Below are positions 6,799 through 17,423 of a stretch of 64,000 nt of DNA, one piece after another. Where the stretch lies: the NCBI RefSeq assembly GCF_023913515.1, contig NZ_CP099391.1:3038001-3102000 (forward strand), written 5' to 3'. The notes beneath the pieces were generated by a model. That model saw nothing but the letters and a program-made list of their open reading frames with translations, was not told where the DNA came from and did not search any database. Source of the stretch: Natronococcus sp. CG52 (GTDB lineage Archaea > Halobacteriota > Halobacteria > Halobacteriales > Natrialbaceae). The translations under genes and the position numbers were made by a program. Each line of letters begins with the position of its first letter. The stretch's first letter is position 1.

Positions 6799-7761
6799 TT
6801 ACCGTGTCGGGACGCCGTCGCTGTGTTCGGGACTGTGGCGCTCGGGCTCCGGCGAGGGAACCGCAGAGACGCGGTCGAAGACCGCCTCCGGATCCTGGTT
6901 CCGGTGCCAGTACCAGCGCGTTTTCCCGAGACACCATAGTTTGCGAGCCGTCGAGAGCGACGGCTCCGTCGTGAGCACGTCGTACCCCTGGGCGCGGATG
7001 ACGGCGTGGTGTTCCGCGTAGAGGACGGCCGAGAGCAACACCGGGATCTGACAGTCCTCGGGCAGGTACCGAATGCCGGCGACGCCCTCACGGTAGAGGC
7101 GCTCCGTTCGCCTGAGTTCCTCCGCCATCGCCGCCCGGAACGACGCCGAGTACTCGAGATTCTCGATCTGTGCCGCCGGGATGCCGTGAGATTGGAGCGT
7201 CTCCTGCGGGATGTAGATCCGGTCGCGCTCGAGGACGTCCTCGCGGACGTCTCGCAGGAAGTTCGTCAGCTGGAACGCCTTTCCGAGTTTGATCGCGTGC
7301 GGGAGCGCGGTCGCCGGGTCGTCGGGTTCCATGATCGCGGTCATCATCACGCCGACGGCCGCGGCCGACCCGCGCATGTAGGTCTCGAGGTCGTCGTAGG
7401 TCTCGTACCGACCGGTGGCGATGTCCGTCTCCATCGCGTCGATGAACGCGTCGATCTCGCGATCGTCGATGTCGTACCGCCGCCGAAGCTCCTGGAACGC
7501 CTCGAGGACCGGATCCTCCGGCTCGGTACGGCCGAGCGCCTGGGCGCGAAGCGACTCGAGTTCCGCACGCTGTTGTGCGGGCGGAACCCCCGCTGCGTCG
7601 TCGACGACTTCGTCCGCGATTCGAAAGAACGCGTAGAGGACGTGCGTGGCGTTGCGAACCCGATCCGGGAGAAACCGCGTCGCGAGATAGAACGTTTTCC
7701 CGGTTCGCTTCTGTATTGCCTCGCTTGCCTCGATATGTTCCTGTCGCATTTGCTGGTTCAT
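6799..7761 (-). CDS. crtB: Phytoene synthase
   Basis: A 320-residue squalene/phytoene synthase-family enzyme that joins two geranylgeranyl diphosphates to phytoene, the first committed step of the carotenoid pathway whose late steps are encoded by crtD-lyeJ-cruF. Both Asp-rich Mg-diphosphate motifs are present: RIADEVVDDAAG in the first quarter and LRDVREDVLERDRIYIPQE in the middle. I chose ATG 7761 (MNQQMRQEH) because the upstream in-frame codons cover the promoter. MRQEH at 7749 is an alternative. An AT-rich TATA element and a Bat-like site lie upstream. Confidence 0.92.
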   Translation of the reverse strand: MNQQMRQEHIEASEAIQKRTGKTFYLATRFLPDRVRNATHVLYAFFRIADEVVDDAAGVPPAQQRAELESLRAQALGRTEPEDPVLEAFQELRRRYDIDDREIDAFIDAMETDIATGRYETYDDLETYMRGSAAAVGVMMTAIMEPDDPATALPHAIKLGKAFQLTNFLRDVREDVLERDRIYIPQETLQSHGIPAAQIENLEYSASFRAAMAEELRRTERLYREGVAGIRYLPEDCQIPVLLSAVLYAEHHAVIRAQGYDVLTTEPSLSTARKLWCLGKTRWYWHRNQDPEAVFDRVSAVPSPEPERHSPEHSDGVPTR

Positions 7762-7829: not shown

Positions 7830-7837
7830 GTATAAAA
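7830..7837 (-). promoter_or_regulatory. TATA box of crtB
   Basis: Read on the minus strand this is TTTTATAC. It is followed about 26 bases on by a plausible transcription start near 7803, leaving a leader of roughly 40 bases before ATG 7761. Confidence 0.5.
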
Positions 7838-7845
7838 CCACTACC

Positions 7846-7860
7846 CCTCACTAGTGTGGT
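7846..7860 (-). promoter_or_regulatory. Bat-type upstream activating sequence of crtB
   Basis: On the minus strand the sequence is ACCACACTAGTGAGG. It matches the UAS consensus reported for the Halobacterium Bat regulon (ACCcnactagTTnGG, which controls bop, brp, bat and crtB1) at all but two of the specified positions. It ends 8 bases upstream of the TATA box, where an activator site is expected. The consensus is from memory of published work; that Bat-like protein acts here is inference. Confidence 0.5.
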
Positions 7861-7913: not shown

Positions 7914-9143
7914 TTATGGCTCGAGCAGGTCGTCGGCGAGCATCGGGATGAACGTCCCGATGTCGGTGACCATCCCGATCGCCTGGGCGCTACCGCGGTC
8001 GAGCAACTGGGTGACCGTCGCGGGGTTGATGTCGACGCAGACGGTTTTGGTCGTCGAGGGCAGACAGTTGCCGACGGCGACGGAGTGCAACAGCGTCGAG
8101 AGCATGAGCACGAGGTCGGCCTCCTGGGCCTGTTCGCGGATCGCGTTCTGGGCCTCGATCGAGTCGGTGATCGTGTCCGGCAGCGGGCCGTCGTCGCGGA
8201 TCGATCCCGCGAGCACGTAGGGGACGTCCTTCTCGACGCACTCGTACATCACACCATCGTCGACGATACCCTCCTCGACGGCCGCCTCGATCCCGCCGAG
8301 ACGAGCGATCTCGCTGATCGTGTAGATGTGGTGCTTGTGGCCCTTCCGCGGGTGCTCCAGGCTCTCCGTGTCGACGCCGAGCGACGTCCCGTACAGGTCC
8401 CGCTCGAGGTCGTGGACCGCGAAGCCGTTCCCCGCACTAAGCGCGTCGACGTAACCCGCTCGAACGAGGTCGGCGAGCGCGTCCCGGCCGCCGGAGTGAA
8501 CGATCGCCGGGCCGCAGACCACGAGGACGGTGCCGTCGTTCGCGTTGACCTCGCGCATCTCGTCGGCGATCTCCTCGATGAGCGACGCGGAGGGGCGCTC
8601 GCTCGAGACGCCGCCCTGCATGAAGCCGAACGAACCGCCGCCGTTTCGGGGTCGTTCCGGCGGATCGACTCTGATTCCGGTCTCGCCCGTCACGACGAGA
8701 TCGCCCTCCTCGACGGCGTTGAGTACCTTCGTGTGGACGCGGGTTCCGCTCGCCTCGCGCTCGACCACGAGCGCGCAGTCCATCTCGACGTCCTCGACCT
8801 CGAGCCACTCGCCGTCGACGCGGACGACCGTCGGATGGTTGGTCGTCGAGTAGAAGTCGGCCGGCACGATCCCGTCGCCCGGTGCCGCCTGAAGCGTCGC
8901 GTCCCGGGGATCGGCGACCGCCGCTCCCTGCTGGTTGAGCTCGTGGAGGATCGCCCGAAGATCCTCCTCGGTGTCAGCCATCACCCGCATTCGGCAGTAG
9001 GTCTCCTCGTGTTTGTGCCGCCCGACCTCGAACTCCTCGACCTCGAACTCGCCACCCATGTCCATCACGGCGCCGAAACACGCGCCCATCGACCCCGAGT
9101 CGATGATGTGGCCCTCGAGTTCCACGGTTCGCGAGACTGTCAT
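7914..9143 (-). CDS. Archaeal ornithine cyclodeaminase (TIGR00300, LOR/SDH domain)
   Basis: A 409-residue protein matching the TIGR00300 family. The N-terminal third (start MTVSRTVELEGHIIDSG) is the LOR/SDH domain and the remainder is a Rossmann-like domain containing the signature SAGNGFAVHDLERDLYGTSL. Members of this family convert ornithine to proline and ammonia in methanogens, and the same domain forms the C-terminus of cyanobacterial AgrE. A segment HPRKGHKHHIYTISEI is strongly conserved as I remember the family. It is transcribed in the same direction as crtB but is separated from it by more than 150 bases. It is probably monocistronic. Confidence 0.75.
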   Translation of the reverse strand: MTVSRTVELEGHIIDSGSMGACFGAVMDMGGEFEVEEFEVGRHKHEETYCRMRVMADTEEDLRAILHELNQQGAAVADPRDATLQAAPGDGIVPADFYSTTNHPTVVRVDGEWLEVEDVEMDCALVVEREASGTRVHTKVLNAVEEGDLVVTGETGIRVDPPERPRNGGGSFGFMQGGVSSERPSASLIEEIADEMREVNANDGTVLVVCGPAIVHSGGRDALADLVRAGYVDALSAGNGFAVHDLERDLYGTSLGVDTESLEHPRKGHKHHIYTISEIARLGGIEAAVEEGIVDDGVMYECVEKDVPYVLAGSIRDDGPLPDTITDSIEAQNAIREQAQEADLVLMLSTLLHSVAVGNCLPSTTKTVCVDINPATVTQLLDRGSAQAIGMVTDIGTFIPMLADDLLEP

Positions 9144-14507: not shown

Positions 14508-17423
14508 ATGGCTTTCGCACGGACTCGCGACGATACCCGTCTCCTCGTCGTCGAACCCGCCCCCGCGGACGAGGAGACGACCACGATCACAGAGCGTGCA
14601 CGCGAGACGGACGCCGTCGCCGACGTACGCTCGTTCGCGAGCGCGCAGGCGGCGCTCGAGTCCCTCGAGTCGAACGCGATCGACTGTATCGTGTGCGCTC
14701 ACGAACTGGGTACGACGAACGGCCTCGACCTGCTCGAGACGATTCGAGACCGCGAGCCGAATCTGCCGGTCGTGTTCGCACCGGCGAACGGCGACGAGAG
14801 GCTCGCCAGCGACGCGGTCGCCGCGGGTGTCACCGAGTACGTGCCCCGCGAGCGGCGGGACTCGCTCGCGGCGGCGATCGACAGCGCGATCGCGCGAGGT
14901 CAAACGGATCGAGCCGCGCAGGAACGCGCCCGCCAGTTCGAGTCGATCTTCGAGGATTCGGACACCTACTCGTGGGTGCTCGAGCCCGACGGTGACGTTC
15001 GCCGGACGAATACGGGCGCACTCGAGGCGATCGACGCGACCGAAAGCGACGTCCAGGGCCGTCCGTTCTGGGCGCTCCCCTGGTGGGAGCGTACCGAAGA
15101 CGGACGGGAAGCGATCCGGACCGCAGTAGAGCGGGCAGCGGACGGAACGGCCGCACACCGAGAACTGACTCGAACGGTACCGCCGGAGACCGAACGTGAC
15201 CGAACCGACGCGGGTGGGGCGCGGACCTTCGAGGTATCGGTGCGACCGGTGCGAGACGAGATCGGAACGGTCGTCTCGCTGTTCGCCCAGGCGACGGACG
15301 TCACCGAACGCGTCCGACTCGAGGCGGAGCTTCGGGAGTCCGAGGAACTCCACCGGGTGACGCTCAACAACATGACCGACACCGTCCTCATCACCGACGA
15401 CGACGGTGCGTTCACCTACGTCTGTCCGAACGTCCACTTCATCTTCGGCTACACCGACGACGAGATCCACGAAATGGGGACGATCGACGAGCTGCTCGCA
15501 CCGGAGCTCTTCGATCGCGAGGAACTCGCCGAGGAGGGCGTCCTGACGAATATCGAGTGTACGGCGACGGACAAAGCGGGACGCGAGCACACCCTGCTGG
15601 TCAACGTCCGCGAGGTGTCGATTCAGGACGGGACGATCCTCTACAGCTGCCGCGACGTTACTAAACGCAAGCGCCGCGAGGAAGCGCTGACGGCGCTCCA
15701 CCGGACCGCTCGAGCGCTGCTGTACGCCGAAACGGACCGCGAAATCGCCGACCGAATCGTCGCGGACGGCACGGACGTGCTCGACCTGGGGGCCAGCGCG
15801 GCCTTCCGATTCGACACCGACGAGAACGTGTTACAACCGGTCGCGTCCTCGCCGGGAATGGACCGACTACACGGACCGTTACCGACCAGACGAGCGAACG
15901 ACGAGAGCGTTCCGGGCCAGGTCTTCGTCGAGGGCGAACCGCGGTTCTTCGCGGACGTCCACGAGTCGTCGTCGCTGTCGAATCCGACCACGGAGCTTCG
16001 AAGCGCCGGTTTCGTTCCCCTGGGCGATCACGGCGTCTTCGTCGCCGGCTCACCGACGGTCGACGCCTTCGACGACGTCTCGCGAGAGCTGACCGAGCTG
16101 CTGGCGGCGACGGCGGAGGCGGCGCTCGATCGAGTCGAACGGGAACGGACCCTGCGCGAACGCGACCGGGAGCTCAAACGCCGCAACCGGCAGCTTACCC
16201 GCCTCAATCAGGTGAACGAGATCATCAGGGAGATCGACGCCGCGCTGGTCCGGGCCGAGACCCGCGACGAGATCGAACGCGCCGTCTGCGAGCGGCTCAC
16301 GGCGGCGGAACGGTTCGCCTTCGCCTGGATCGGCACGACCGACGCCGCCGGCGACCGCCTCGAGTCGAACGCCCACGACGGCACCGGGCGAGGCCAGGAG
16401 TACCTCGACAGCGTCTCGTTCTCGCTCGCGGACGCGACCGAACCCGCGGCGCGCACGGCTGCGACGCGCGAGGTGACGGTCGTTCCGAACGTCGTCGACC
16501 GCCTTCACGACGAACCGTGGCGGAAGGCCGCACTCTCGCGGGATTACCAGTCGGCGATCGGCGTTCCGCTCGCGTACGACGAGTTCACCTACGGCGTGTT
16601 GACCGTCTACGCCGACCGGCCCGACGCGTTCGACGAAACCACGCGCGCGGTCCTCGCGGAACTCGGCGAGACGATCGCCTCCGCGATCGCCGCGGTCGAG
16701 CGCAAGCGCGCGCTGCTGACCGACTCGCGGACGCGCTTCGAGTTCGACGTGAACGACGATAGCTTCGTCTTCACGCAGCTCGCACGCCGGGCCGACTGCG
16801 TGCTCTCGTTCGACGGCGGCGTTCGCCAGCACGACGAACGGATCTCCGTGTTCGTAACGGTCGACGGAGCGCCGGTAGCCGACGTCGCGACCGCCGCCGC
16901 CGACCTCGTCGCCGTCGAGGACGTCCGAGTCATCAGCGTCGAGCAAGCCGGCGACGGACCCGGCGGGACGGTGCTCCTCGAGCTCACGCAGCCGTTTCTG
17001 GCGCTTCAGCTCGCGGATCACGGGGTCGTCCTGCGCCGCCTCGAGGCGACGCCGGAGGCCGCACAGCTCGTCGTCGACGTGCCGAGCGCCGTCAACGCGA
17101 GCGGCAGCGTCGATCTCGTCACGAACGCCTTCACGGAGGTCGAACTCCGATCGAAACGGACCGTCGAACGAACGTCGCCGCGCGATCTGCACTCGGAGCT
17201 GGTCGACCGGCTGACGGAGCGACAGCTCGAGGTCGTCCAGATGGCCTACTACGGCGGCTACTTCGAATCTCCGCGCGAGCGATCCGGCGAAGACGTCGCC
17301 GAGACGCTCGACATCTCCCCGGCCGCGTTCTACCGTCACATCAGGCGCGTCCAGCGCTCGCTCTTCGTGGTCCTGTTCGAGGAGGCCGGCCTCCCGGCTG
17401 ACGCCGCACCAGGTGTTGAATAG
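14508..17423 (+). CDS. Bat-like multi-domain sensor/transcription regulator (HTH-10)
   Basis: A 971-residue regulator. Residues about 10-130 form a response-receiver-like fold, but the phospho-acceptor position reads CIVCAHELG, so the Asp appears lost. Two PAS domains follow (about 145-270 and 280-395), then two GAF domains (about 400-540 and 570-730). The C-terminal part is the Bat-type GAF/HTH module ending in an HTH-10 domain with LTERQLEVVQMAYYGGYFESPR and LDISPAAFYRHIRRV. Such proteins sense redox or light and activate target promoters directly. It is divergent from the XPF-like nuclease. A link to the Bat-like site before crtB is inference. Confidence 0.85.
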   Translation: MAFARTRDDTRLLVVEPAPADEETTTITERARETDAVADVRSFASAQAALESLESNAIDCIVCAHELGTTNGLDLLETIRDREPNLPVVFAPANGDERLASDAVAAGVTEYVPRERRDSLAAAIDSAIARGQTDRAAQERARQFESIFEDSDTYSWVLEPDGDVRRTNTGALEAIDATESDVQGRPFWALPWWERTEDGREAIRTAVERAADGTAAHRELTRTVPPETERDRTDAGGARTFEVSVRPVRDEIGTVVSLFAQATDVTERVRLEAELRESEELHRVTLNNMTDTVLITDDDGAFTYVCPNVHFIFGYTDDEIHEMGTIDELLAPELFDREELAEEGVLTNIECTATDKAGREHTLLVNVREVSIQDGTILYSCRDVTKRKRREEALTALHRTARALLYAETDREIADRIVADGTDVLDLGASAAFRFDTDENVLQPVASSPGMDRLHGPLPTRRANDESVPGQVFVEGEPRFFADVHESSSLSNPTTELRSAGFVPLGDHGVFVAGSPTVDAFDDVSRELTELLAATAEAALDRVERERTLRERDRELKRRNRQLTRLNQVNEIIREIDAALVRAETRDEIERAVCERLTAAERFAFAWIGTTDAAGDRLESNAHDGTGRGQEYLDSVSFSLADATEPAARTAATREVTVVPNVVDRLHDEPWRKAALSRDYQSAIGVPLAYDEFTYGVLTVYADRPDAFDETTRAVLAELGETIASAIAAVERKRALLTDSRTRFEFDVNDDSFVFTQLARRADCVLSFDGGVRQHDERISVFVTVDGAPVADVATAAADLVAVEDVRVISVEQAGDGPGGTVLLELTQPFLALQLADHGVVLRRLEATPEAAQLVVDVPSAVNASGSVDLVTNAFTEVELRSKRTVERTSPRDLHSELVDRLTERQLEVVQMAYYGGYFESPRERSGEDVAETLDISPAAFYRHIRRVQRSLFVVLFEEAGLPADAAPGVE

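Follow-up and report, generated by a model that had tools for sequence, protein, structure and literature searches.

Upstream of the phytoene synthase gene crtB of Natronococcus sp. CG52 lies a sequence that resembles the UAS of Bat, which raises the question of what such a site does in this genome and which protein reads it. In Halobacterium, crtB1 is reported to be a UAS gene (PMC1447603, PMC2253796), and the Bat UAS with crtB1 as a target is already known (PMC1447603, PMC2253796, PMC1502140). The initial annotation of the window, by which we mean the whole 64-kb stretch of DNA that was analysed, read the site as one of Bat control and pointed to an HTH_10 protein encoded 7 kb away. Bat-type control of crtB was supported by our sequence comparisons: a Bat-UAS-like site is present where expected, is conserved and is absent from the crtD operon, whereas the regulator 7 kb away had to be given up. 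The features concerned are listed in Table 1.

Table 1. Features of the crtB locus and of the regulator genes considered
Feature	Position	Strand	Basis
crtB, phytoene synthase	6799..7749	minus	Pfam SQS_PSY, E 1.4e-71 on 6799-7761
TATA box TTTTATA	7831..7837	minus	Sequence; crtB promoter
Bat-UAS-like dyad ACCACACTAGTGAGG	7846..7860	minus	Sequence; single exact genomic place; kept family-wide
Dyad core CCACACTAGTGAGG	7859-7846	minus	Part of the ACCACACTAGTGAGG site
ArgZ-like gene, next upstream of crtB	7914..9143	minus	Pfam
HTH_10 protein named in the initial annotation	14508..17423	plus	Domains; outside the Bat group in the tree
Candidate regulator (LOV-Bat protein)	G000:C1:572517-574373		Sole own-genome member of the Bat group in the tree
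Zinc-finger protein, 62 residues	L148:6223-6410 (G000:C1 near 572.3 kb)	minus	Divergent beside the LOV-Bat gene

Translation of crtB more likely starts at the ATG at 7749 than at the ATG at 7761. Judged by pattern, 39 of 40 relatives have an ATG equivalent to the former; the fortieth (L029) has MQQDH at this point. In L027, the nearest relative, an in-frame stop codon precedes the equivalent ATG. The sequence and coordinates originally given for the site were correct. It is a near-perfect dyad separated from the TATA box by exactly 8 bases, GGTAGTGG, and thus lies directly above the TATA region of its target, as looked for in a UAS. Compared with ACCNNACTAGTTNGG, which we take to be the Bat UAS consensus as quoted in the initial annotation, the site differs at position 12 only, where it has G instead of T. 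Loose matching to this consensus was uninformative, since up to three mismatches gave 34 matches in the window versus 28.5 expected; a match with a single mismatch occurred in the window at the crtB site only.

The genome-wide scan that had been proposed as a check was performed, and CCNNACTAGTKNGG was found in exact form at one place in the 4,743,419 bases of the genome, the crtB site. The pattern GTGAGGGN7TTTTATA with up to two mismatches also matched one place in the whole genome, and site and TATA box together occur once in 4.74 Mb. With CCNNACTAGTGAGGN8TTTTATA and up to three mismatches, eight of the nine genomes of the genus gave one place each, at crtB by position, and the controls gave no match. 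The ninth genome, G203, had no match to this pattern; its crtB promoter nonetheless carries GTGAGG at the same distance from the TATA box. Elsewhere in the own genome there are 29 one-mismatch places, and TTTTATA was found right below none of the 25 that were read (one unread place is on contig C2 and three are on C3), so that other target genes were rejected for these 25 places. A purple-membrane regulon would comprise several genes with a common UAS; here one exact and one composite place were obtained. The crtD promoter region contained no site scoring at least 8/10, which bears out the earlier statement that the crtD-lyeJ-cruF operon lacks the site.

Of 125 family genomes, two (G279 and G459) gave no crtB; the promoters of 133 crtB copies from the other 123 were analysed for conservation. 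A strict form of the site, defined as GTGAGG followed after 7 to 9 bases by a TATA-like word, was present at 87 of the 133 copies by the main pattern (88 with TTATATA allowed) compared to 0.25 expected from dinucleotide shuffles, and a dyad score of at least 8/10 at the right distance was reached by 66 copies compared to 0.3 expected from shuffles. The spacing between GTGAGG and the TATA-like word was exactly 8 in 84 of the 87 copies having both within 12 bases. A lack of the site in close relatives had been named as an argument against its function; the strict form was kept in 32 of the 40 nearest crtB loci. The most complete form seen in the family is CCCNACTAGTGAGGG. Of the two halves of the dyad, the right one (GTGAGGG) is the more strongly conserved; the left one is weakly conserved in several lineages, among them much of the genus to which the window belongs. 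The dyads of g6 (ACTAGTTAGG) and those of second crtB copies were counted as absent because the strict definition requires a TATA-like word. Such related dyads precede the second copies in G264, G377, G371, and G200, and both these copies and the g6 copies have a Bat-type gene directly upstream. All six g18 genomes have variant sites without the strict form. Four g5 genomes (L277, L278, L279, and L280) contain a second crtB copy that is linked to an HTH_10 gene and carries a nearly perfect palindrome, CCACACTAGTGTGG or CCATACTAGTGTGG; the site at their first copy is degenerate.

The strict form was found at none of the 33 crtB genes read in other haloarchaeal families, out of 34 found (that on G002:C34 was left out). 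Bat-UAS-like sites are present at some crtB genes of these families, such as ACCCGTACTAGTTTGG in L116 and ACCTGACTAGTAGGG in L129. In L140, where a crtB copy belongs to the rhodopsin cluster, this copy carries the Bat-UAS-like CCAAACTGGTGGGG; the gene order there is crtB, Bat-type gene, rhodopsin, which suggests Halobacteriaceae. Seven f5 crtB genes (L112, L114, L115, L117, L119, L120, and L121) share an upstream block like AACTGTTATG, possibly a different regulatory element. Three f12 crtB genes (L134, L135, and L136) have in common CCTTCAGTCGTTTGGAG and, further down, CACCGTGTTTTTTCTTCTCT.

A search of the own genome for rhodopsins with PF01036 gave no match, and 14 named controls were also unmatched; the same search matched 273 of the 392 genomes of the order, including one of six of the genus. 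The absence of bop noted for the window thus extends to the whole genome at the level of PF01036. The crtB site therefore does not serve bop here, and a bop or rhodopsin gene, which would belong to the targets of a purple-membrane regulon, is missing from them. Inspection by eye of the g2 rhodopsin promoters (L153, L154, L155, L156, and L162) revealed no clear Bat UAS, and a UAS common to them was rejected; these genes share a different upstream block, TTATTT(T/C)CGTTAGG, which is TTATTTTCGTTAGG-like. The g19 rhodopsin genes (L159 and L160) have the Bat-UAS-like sequence (G)CNCAACTAGTTCGG close upstream, beside a gene for a cysteine-bearing LOV Bat.

Candidate readers of the site were compared in a tree of 39 HTH_10 proteins, 15 of them from the own genome; 3 of the 18 own-genome hits were too short and were left out. 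Most of the 18 HTH_10-type hits lie outside the Bat group. The HTH_10 protein of the window consists of receiver, PAS, GAF, BAT, and HTH_10 domains; the BAT and HTH_10 domains that had made it appear Bat-like are present, but it falls outside the Bat group and has a different recognition helix. It groups with paralogs of its own genome, at 99/97 with the nearest. The Bat-type group (85/77) comprises seven rhodopsin-near regulators, 17 regulators encoded directly upstream of crtB in relatives, and a single one of the 15 own-genome proteins. The latter nests among Bats encoded beside rhodopsin genes (97/91 and 97/89), and its gene is located 2.47 Mb from the crtB site. A Bat-group regulator, as a purple-membrane regulon would possess, is thus encoded in this genome. 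This grouping is matched by the recognition helices, which read ISRSTFHQHLR in regulators of the crtB-linked clade, VSRPTFHEHLR in the own-genome Bat-group protein, and ISPAAFYRHIR in the HTH_10 protein of the window; the last was ruled out as regulator of the crtB site by tree and helix.

A second set of possible readers is encoded next to crtB itself. The C-terminus of a Bat-type HTH_10 protein was found at most 320 bases upstream of 67 of the 133 crtB copies, in 67 of the 123 genomes; assignment of these 67 genes to the Bat group was by tree for 17 and was otherwise inferred from the helix. The ArgZ-like gene and crtB adjoin in the window, and in L044 and L057 the order is ArgZ-like, Bat-type HTH_10, crtB; a linked HTH_10 regulator also lies upstream of crtB in L054 and L066. 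No Bat-type HTH_10 gene lies directly upstream of crtB in the window's own genome, and a regulator of the crtB-linked type was rejected for it, there being no ortholog (best own hit, 39%). In about half of the family, this sister Bat-type regulator directly upstream of crtB probably reads the same site.

The candidate regulator has the domains of a Bat protein, PAS_9 (84 bits), BAT (130 bits), and HTH_10 (68.5 bits). It showed no GAF match at E 0.001, a domain present in the Bats of L140, L143, and L160, and no N-terminal receiver domain, which L160 has and for which L140 and L143 gave weak matches below the cut-off. Among known structures, its PAS domain best matched the LOV domain of YtvA (2mwg, E 1.2e-35), and it carries the PAS/LOV motif NCRFLQG. 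The LOV adduct cysteine (GxNCRxLQ), expected of a LOV photoreceptor, was present in all 31 orthologs that were read, of 97 found. At this position the rhodopsin-adjacent Bats L159 and L160, of the same family, also have Cys, whereas His is found in L140 and L143 and Pro in L139. The proposed crtB circuit is probably LOV-gated, and the presence of a LOV domain makes a light response of crtB plausible. Divergent beside the LOV-Bat gene is the zinc-finger gene, in 29 of 30 ortholog loci; its product matched no Pfam family above the cut-off. Autoregulation of the LOV-Bat gene was considered and rejected: GTGAGG occurs in the own gap between the zinc-finger and LOV-Bat genes and in none of the nine other gaps read.

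Orthologs of the LOV-Bat protein (57-100% identity) were found in 97 of the 125 family genomes; 12 have only a relative of 42-47% identity, and 16 gave no match at E 1e-100. The strict site was present in 86 of the 97 genomes with the ortholog but in only 2 of 26 without it (Fisher 5e-15, kinship ignored). When dyad scores of at least 8 were accepted besides the strict site, a site was counted in 95 of the 97 ortholog-bearing genomes, in all 6 that have the crtB-linked clade alone, and in 2 of the 20 that have neither. Among the 11 ortholog-bearing genomes without the strict site, nine reach a score of at least 8 (AGTAAGG or AGGTAGG variants), and G174 and G458 have no good site. In six of the 26 genomes lacking the ortholog (G140, G455, and four of g5), the gene directly preceding crtB encodes a protein of the crtB-linked clade (58-73% alike), and all six show the full dyad at this regulator-linked copy. 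In the four g5 genomes, which are Natrialba-type, the other crtB copy has lost the dyad, so that the full dyad exists only beside the linked regulator. Two of the remaining 20 genomes without either clade score as site-bearing, G433 and G200; the site of G433 is complete, with neither regulator clade found at the cut-offs used. In seven of these 20 genomes a crtB copy is directly preceded by a Bat-type gene of another kind, and most of the seven carry a related dyad that falls outside the definition.

A small number of deep lineages (g5, g6, g19, and g22) account for much of this co-occurrence. Within genera, the strict site was present in 28 of 28 genomes with the ortholog versus 0 of 1 without in g2, in 5 of 8 versus 0 of 2 in g14, where the other three ortholog-bearing genomes have a variant, and in 1 of 1 versus 0 of 1 in g4. 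The g4 genome without the ortholog, G457, is 67% complete and contains an ortholog fragment and a degenerate site. In g25 the ortholog made no difference: both genomes that have it and the single genome that lacks it carry the site. The association of site and regulator across the family is thus strong, yet it rests on a limited number of lineages.

Another explanation is that the dyad is a Bat-type operator read mainly by one or more other HTH_10 paralogs, with the LOV-Bat protein conserved for other reasons. The genome offers 18 HTH_10-type hits, three of them too short for the tree, G433 retains the site without either Bat-group clade, and Natronococcus genomes like L177 have retained the ortholog together with a dyad that has diverged in its left half. 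We nevertheless consider this explanation unlikely, as just one of the 15 own-genome proteins in the tree belongs to the Bat group and the site co-occurs with the LOV-Bat ortholog or the crtB-linked Bat-type clade. Very unlikely, in our estimate, is that the block is a core-promoter feature, such as an element for an unusual TFB or a supercoiling-sensitive element, to which no specific regulator binds. The fixed spacing to the TATA box and the better preservation of GTGAGGG compared to the left half would fit such a feature, but the block does not adjoin the TATA box, it is dyad-symmetric in many genomes, and a core element should recur, whereas the block occurs once per genome of the genus, at crtB. 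Binding of an unrelated activator or repressor outside the HTH_10 family is hardly to be expected: a palindrome near a TATA box suits many dimeric regulators, and its overlap with promoter function would fit a repressor, but Bat-type HTH_10 genes lie directly upstream of half of the crtB copies and the site is similar to those found at rhodopsin and crtB1 genes where a Bat is encoded nearby.

We consider it likely, judging from the comparative data, that the dyad serves as operator in a Bat/UAS circuit that lacks bop, has a single target, and sets crtB transcription, with the LOV-Bat protein as the probable reader of the dyad. A dimer of this unlinked LOV-PAS/BAT/HTH_10 protein, the likely factor in the own genome, would bind the dyad (CCNNACTAGTGAGG) a short distance above the TATA box and, acting in the manner of Bat, would activate rather than repress crtB. 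Its activity might be set by blue light, through a flavin-cysteine adduct, or by redox state. As crtB catalyses the first committed step to carotenoids, phytoene supply would follow LOV-Bat activity, and bacterioruberin output would follow phytoene supply via the separate crtD-lyeJ-cruF genes. The divergent zinc-finger protein may partner the LOV-Bat protein as Brz accompanies Bat, and in genomes with a linked regulator both regulators may act on the crtB site. A more specific version, in which a cysteine-bearing LOV photoreceptor with a Bat-type HTH_10 domain reads blue light directly and switches the single gene crtB in archaea without bacteriorhodopsin, assisted by a Brz-like zinc-finger partner, seems to us possible rather than probable. 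If this more specific version is true, control of carotenoids may be the earlier role of Bat regulators, and the purple-membrane regulon may be an offshoot whose Bat lost the cysteine in some lineages.

The circuit was unreported in the open-access literature searched, a scope outside of which most subscription papers lie. As far as this literature goes, the new elements are a rhodopsin-less one-gene circuit, its conservation throughout the family, and the link to a cysteine-bearing LOV-Bat protein. The Bat UAS is known as the switch of the purple membrane, and its counterpart described here occurs by itself at crtB across most of a large family of haloarchaea, including a genome in which no rhodopsin gene was found. 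The LOV-Bat/crtB pair would offer a mechanism for light control of bacterioruberin.

Features in common with the Bat/UAS regulon of Halobacterium (bop, brp, bat, and crtB1) are a UAS-like dyad close above the TATA region, crtB among the targets, a genome that encodes an HTH_10 protein of the Bat group, and a small zinc-finger gene near the gene for that protein. The present system differs in that no rhodopsin gene was found, in having one target only and a regulator encoded far from it, in its canonical TTTTATA box, and in the presence of the LOV cysteine. The zinc-finger protein is similar to Brz of Halobacterium (PMC2253796, PMC3184054) in its length of about 60 residues, its CPxCG-type zinc-finger motif, and its location next to a Bat-group gene; its gene is divergent to the regulator gene and far from the target gene, unlike that of Brz, and the likeness is one without a Pfam family above the cut-off. 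The report on BAT-LOV* of Halorubrum (Yee et al. 2015, PMC4682037) describes a LOV-type PAS domain in a Bat protein with an HTH module, as in our candidate, and proposes it as a redox or light sensor; BAT-LOV* has Pro in place of the adduct cysteine, whereas the candidate and the L159 and L160 Bats keep Cys. The same authors note that BAT has been suggested to respond directly to light but that this has not been established definitively (Yee et al. 2015, PMC4682037). The question becomes directly testable with a Bat-group protein that retains the LOV cysteine and for which one target promoter is predicted. With YtvA and other LOV photoreceptors the candidate shares the PAS domain similarity and the NCRFLQG motif described above, and it differs from them in its output, which is BAT plus HTH_10 instead of a STAS domain or a histidine kinase.
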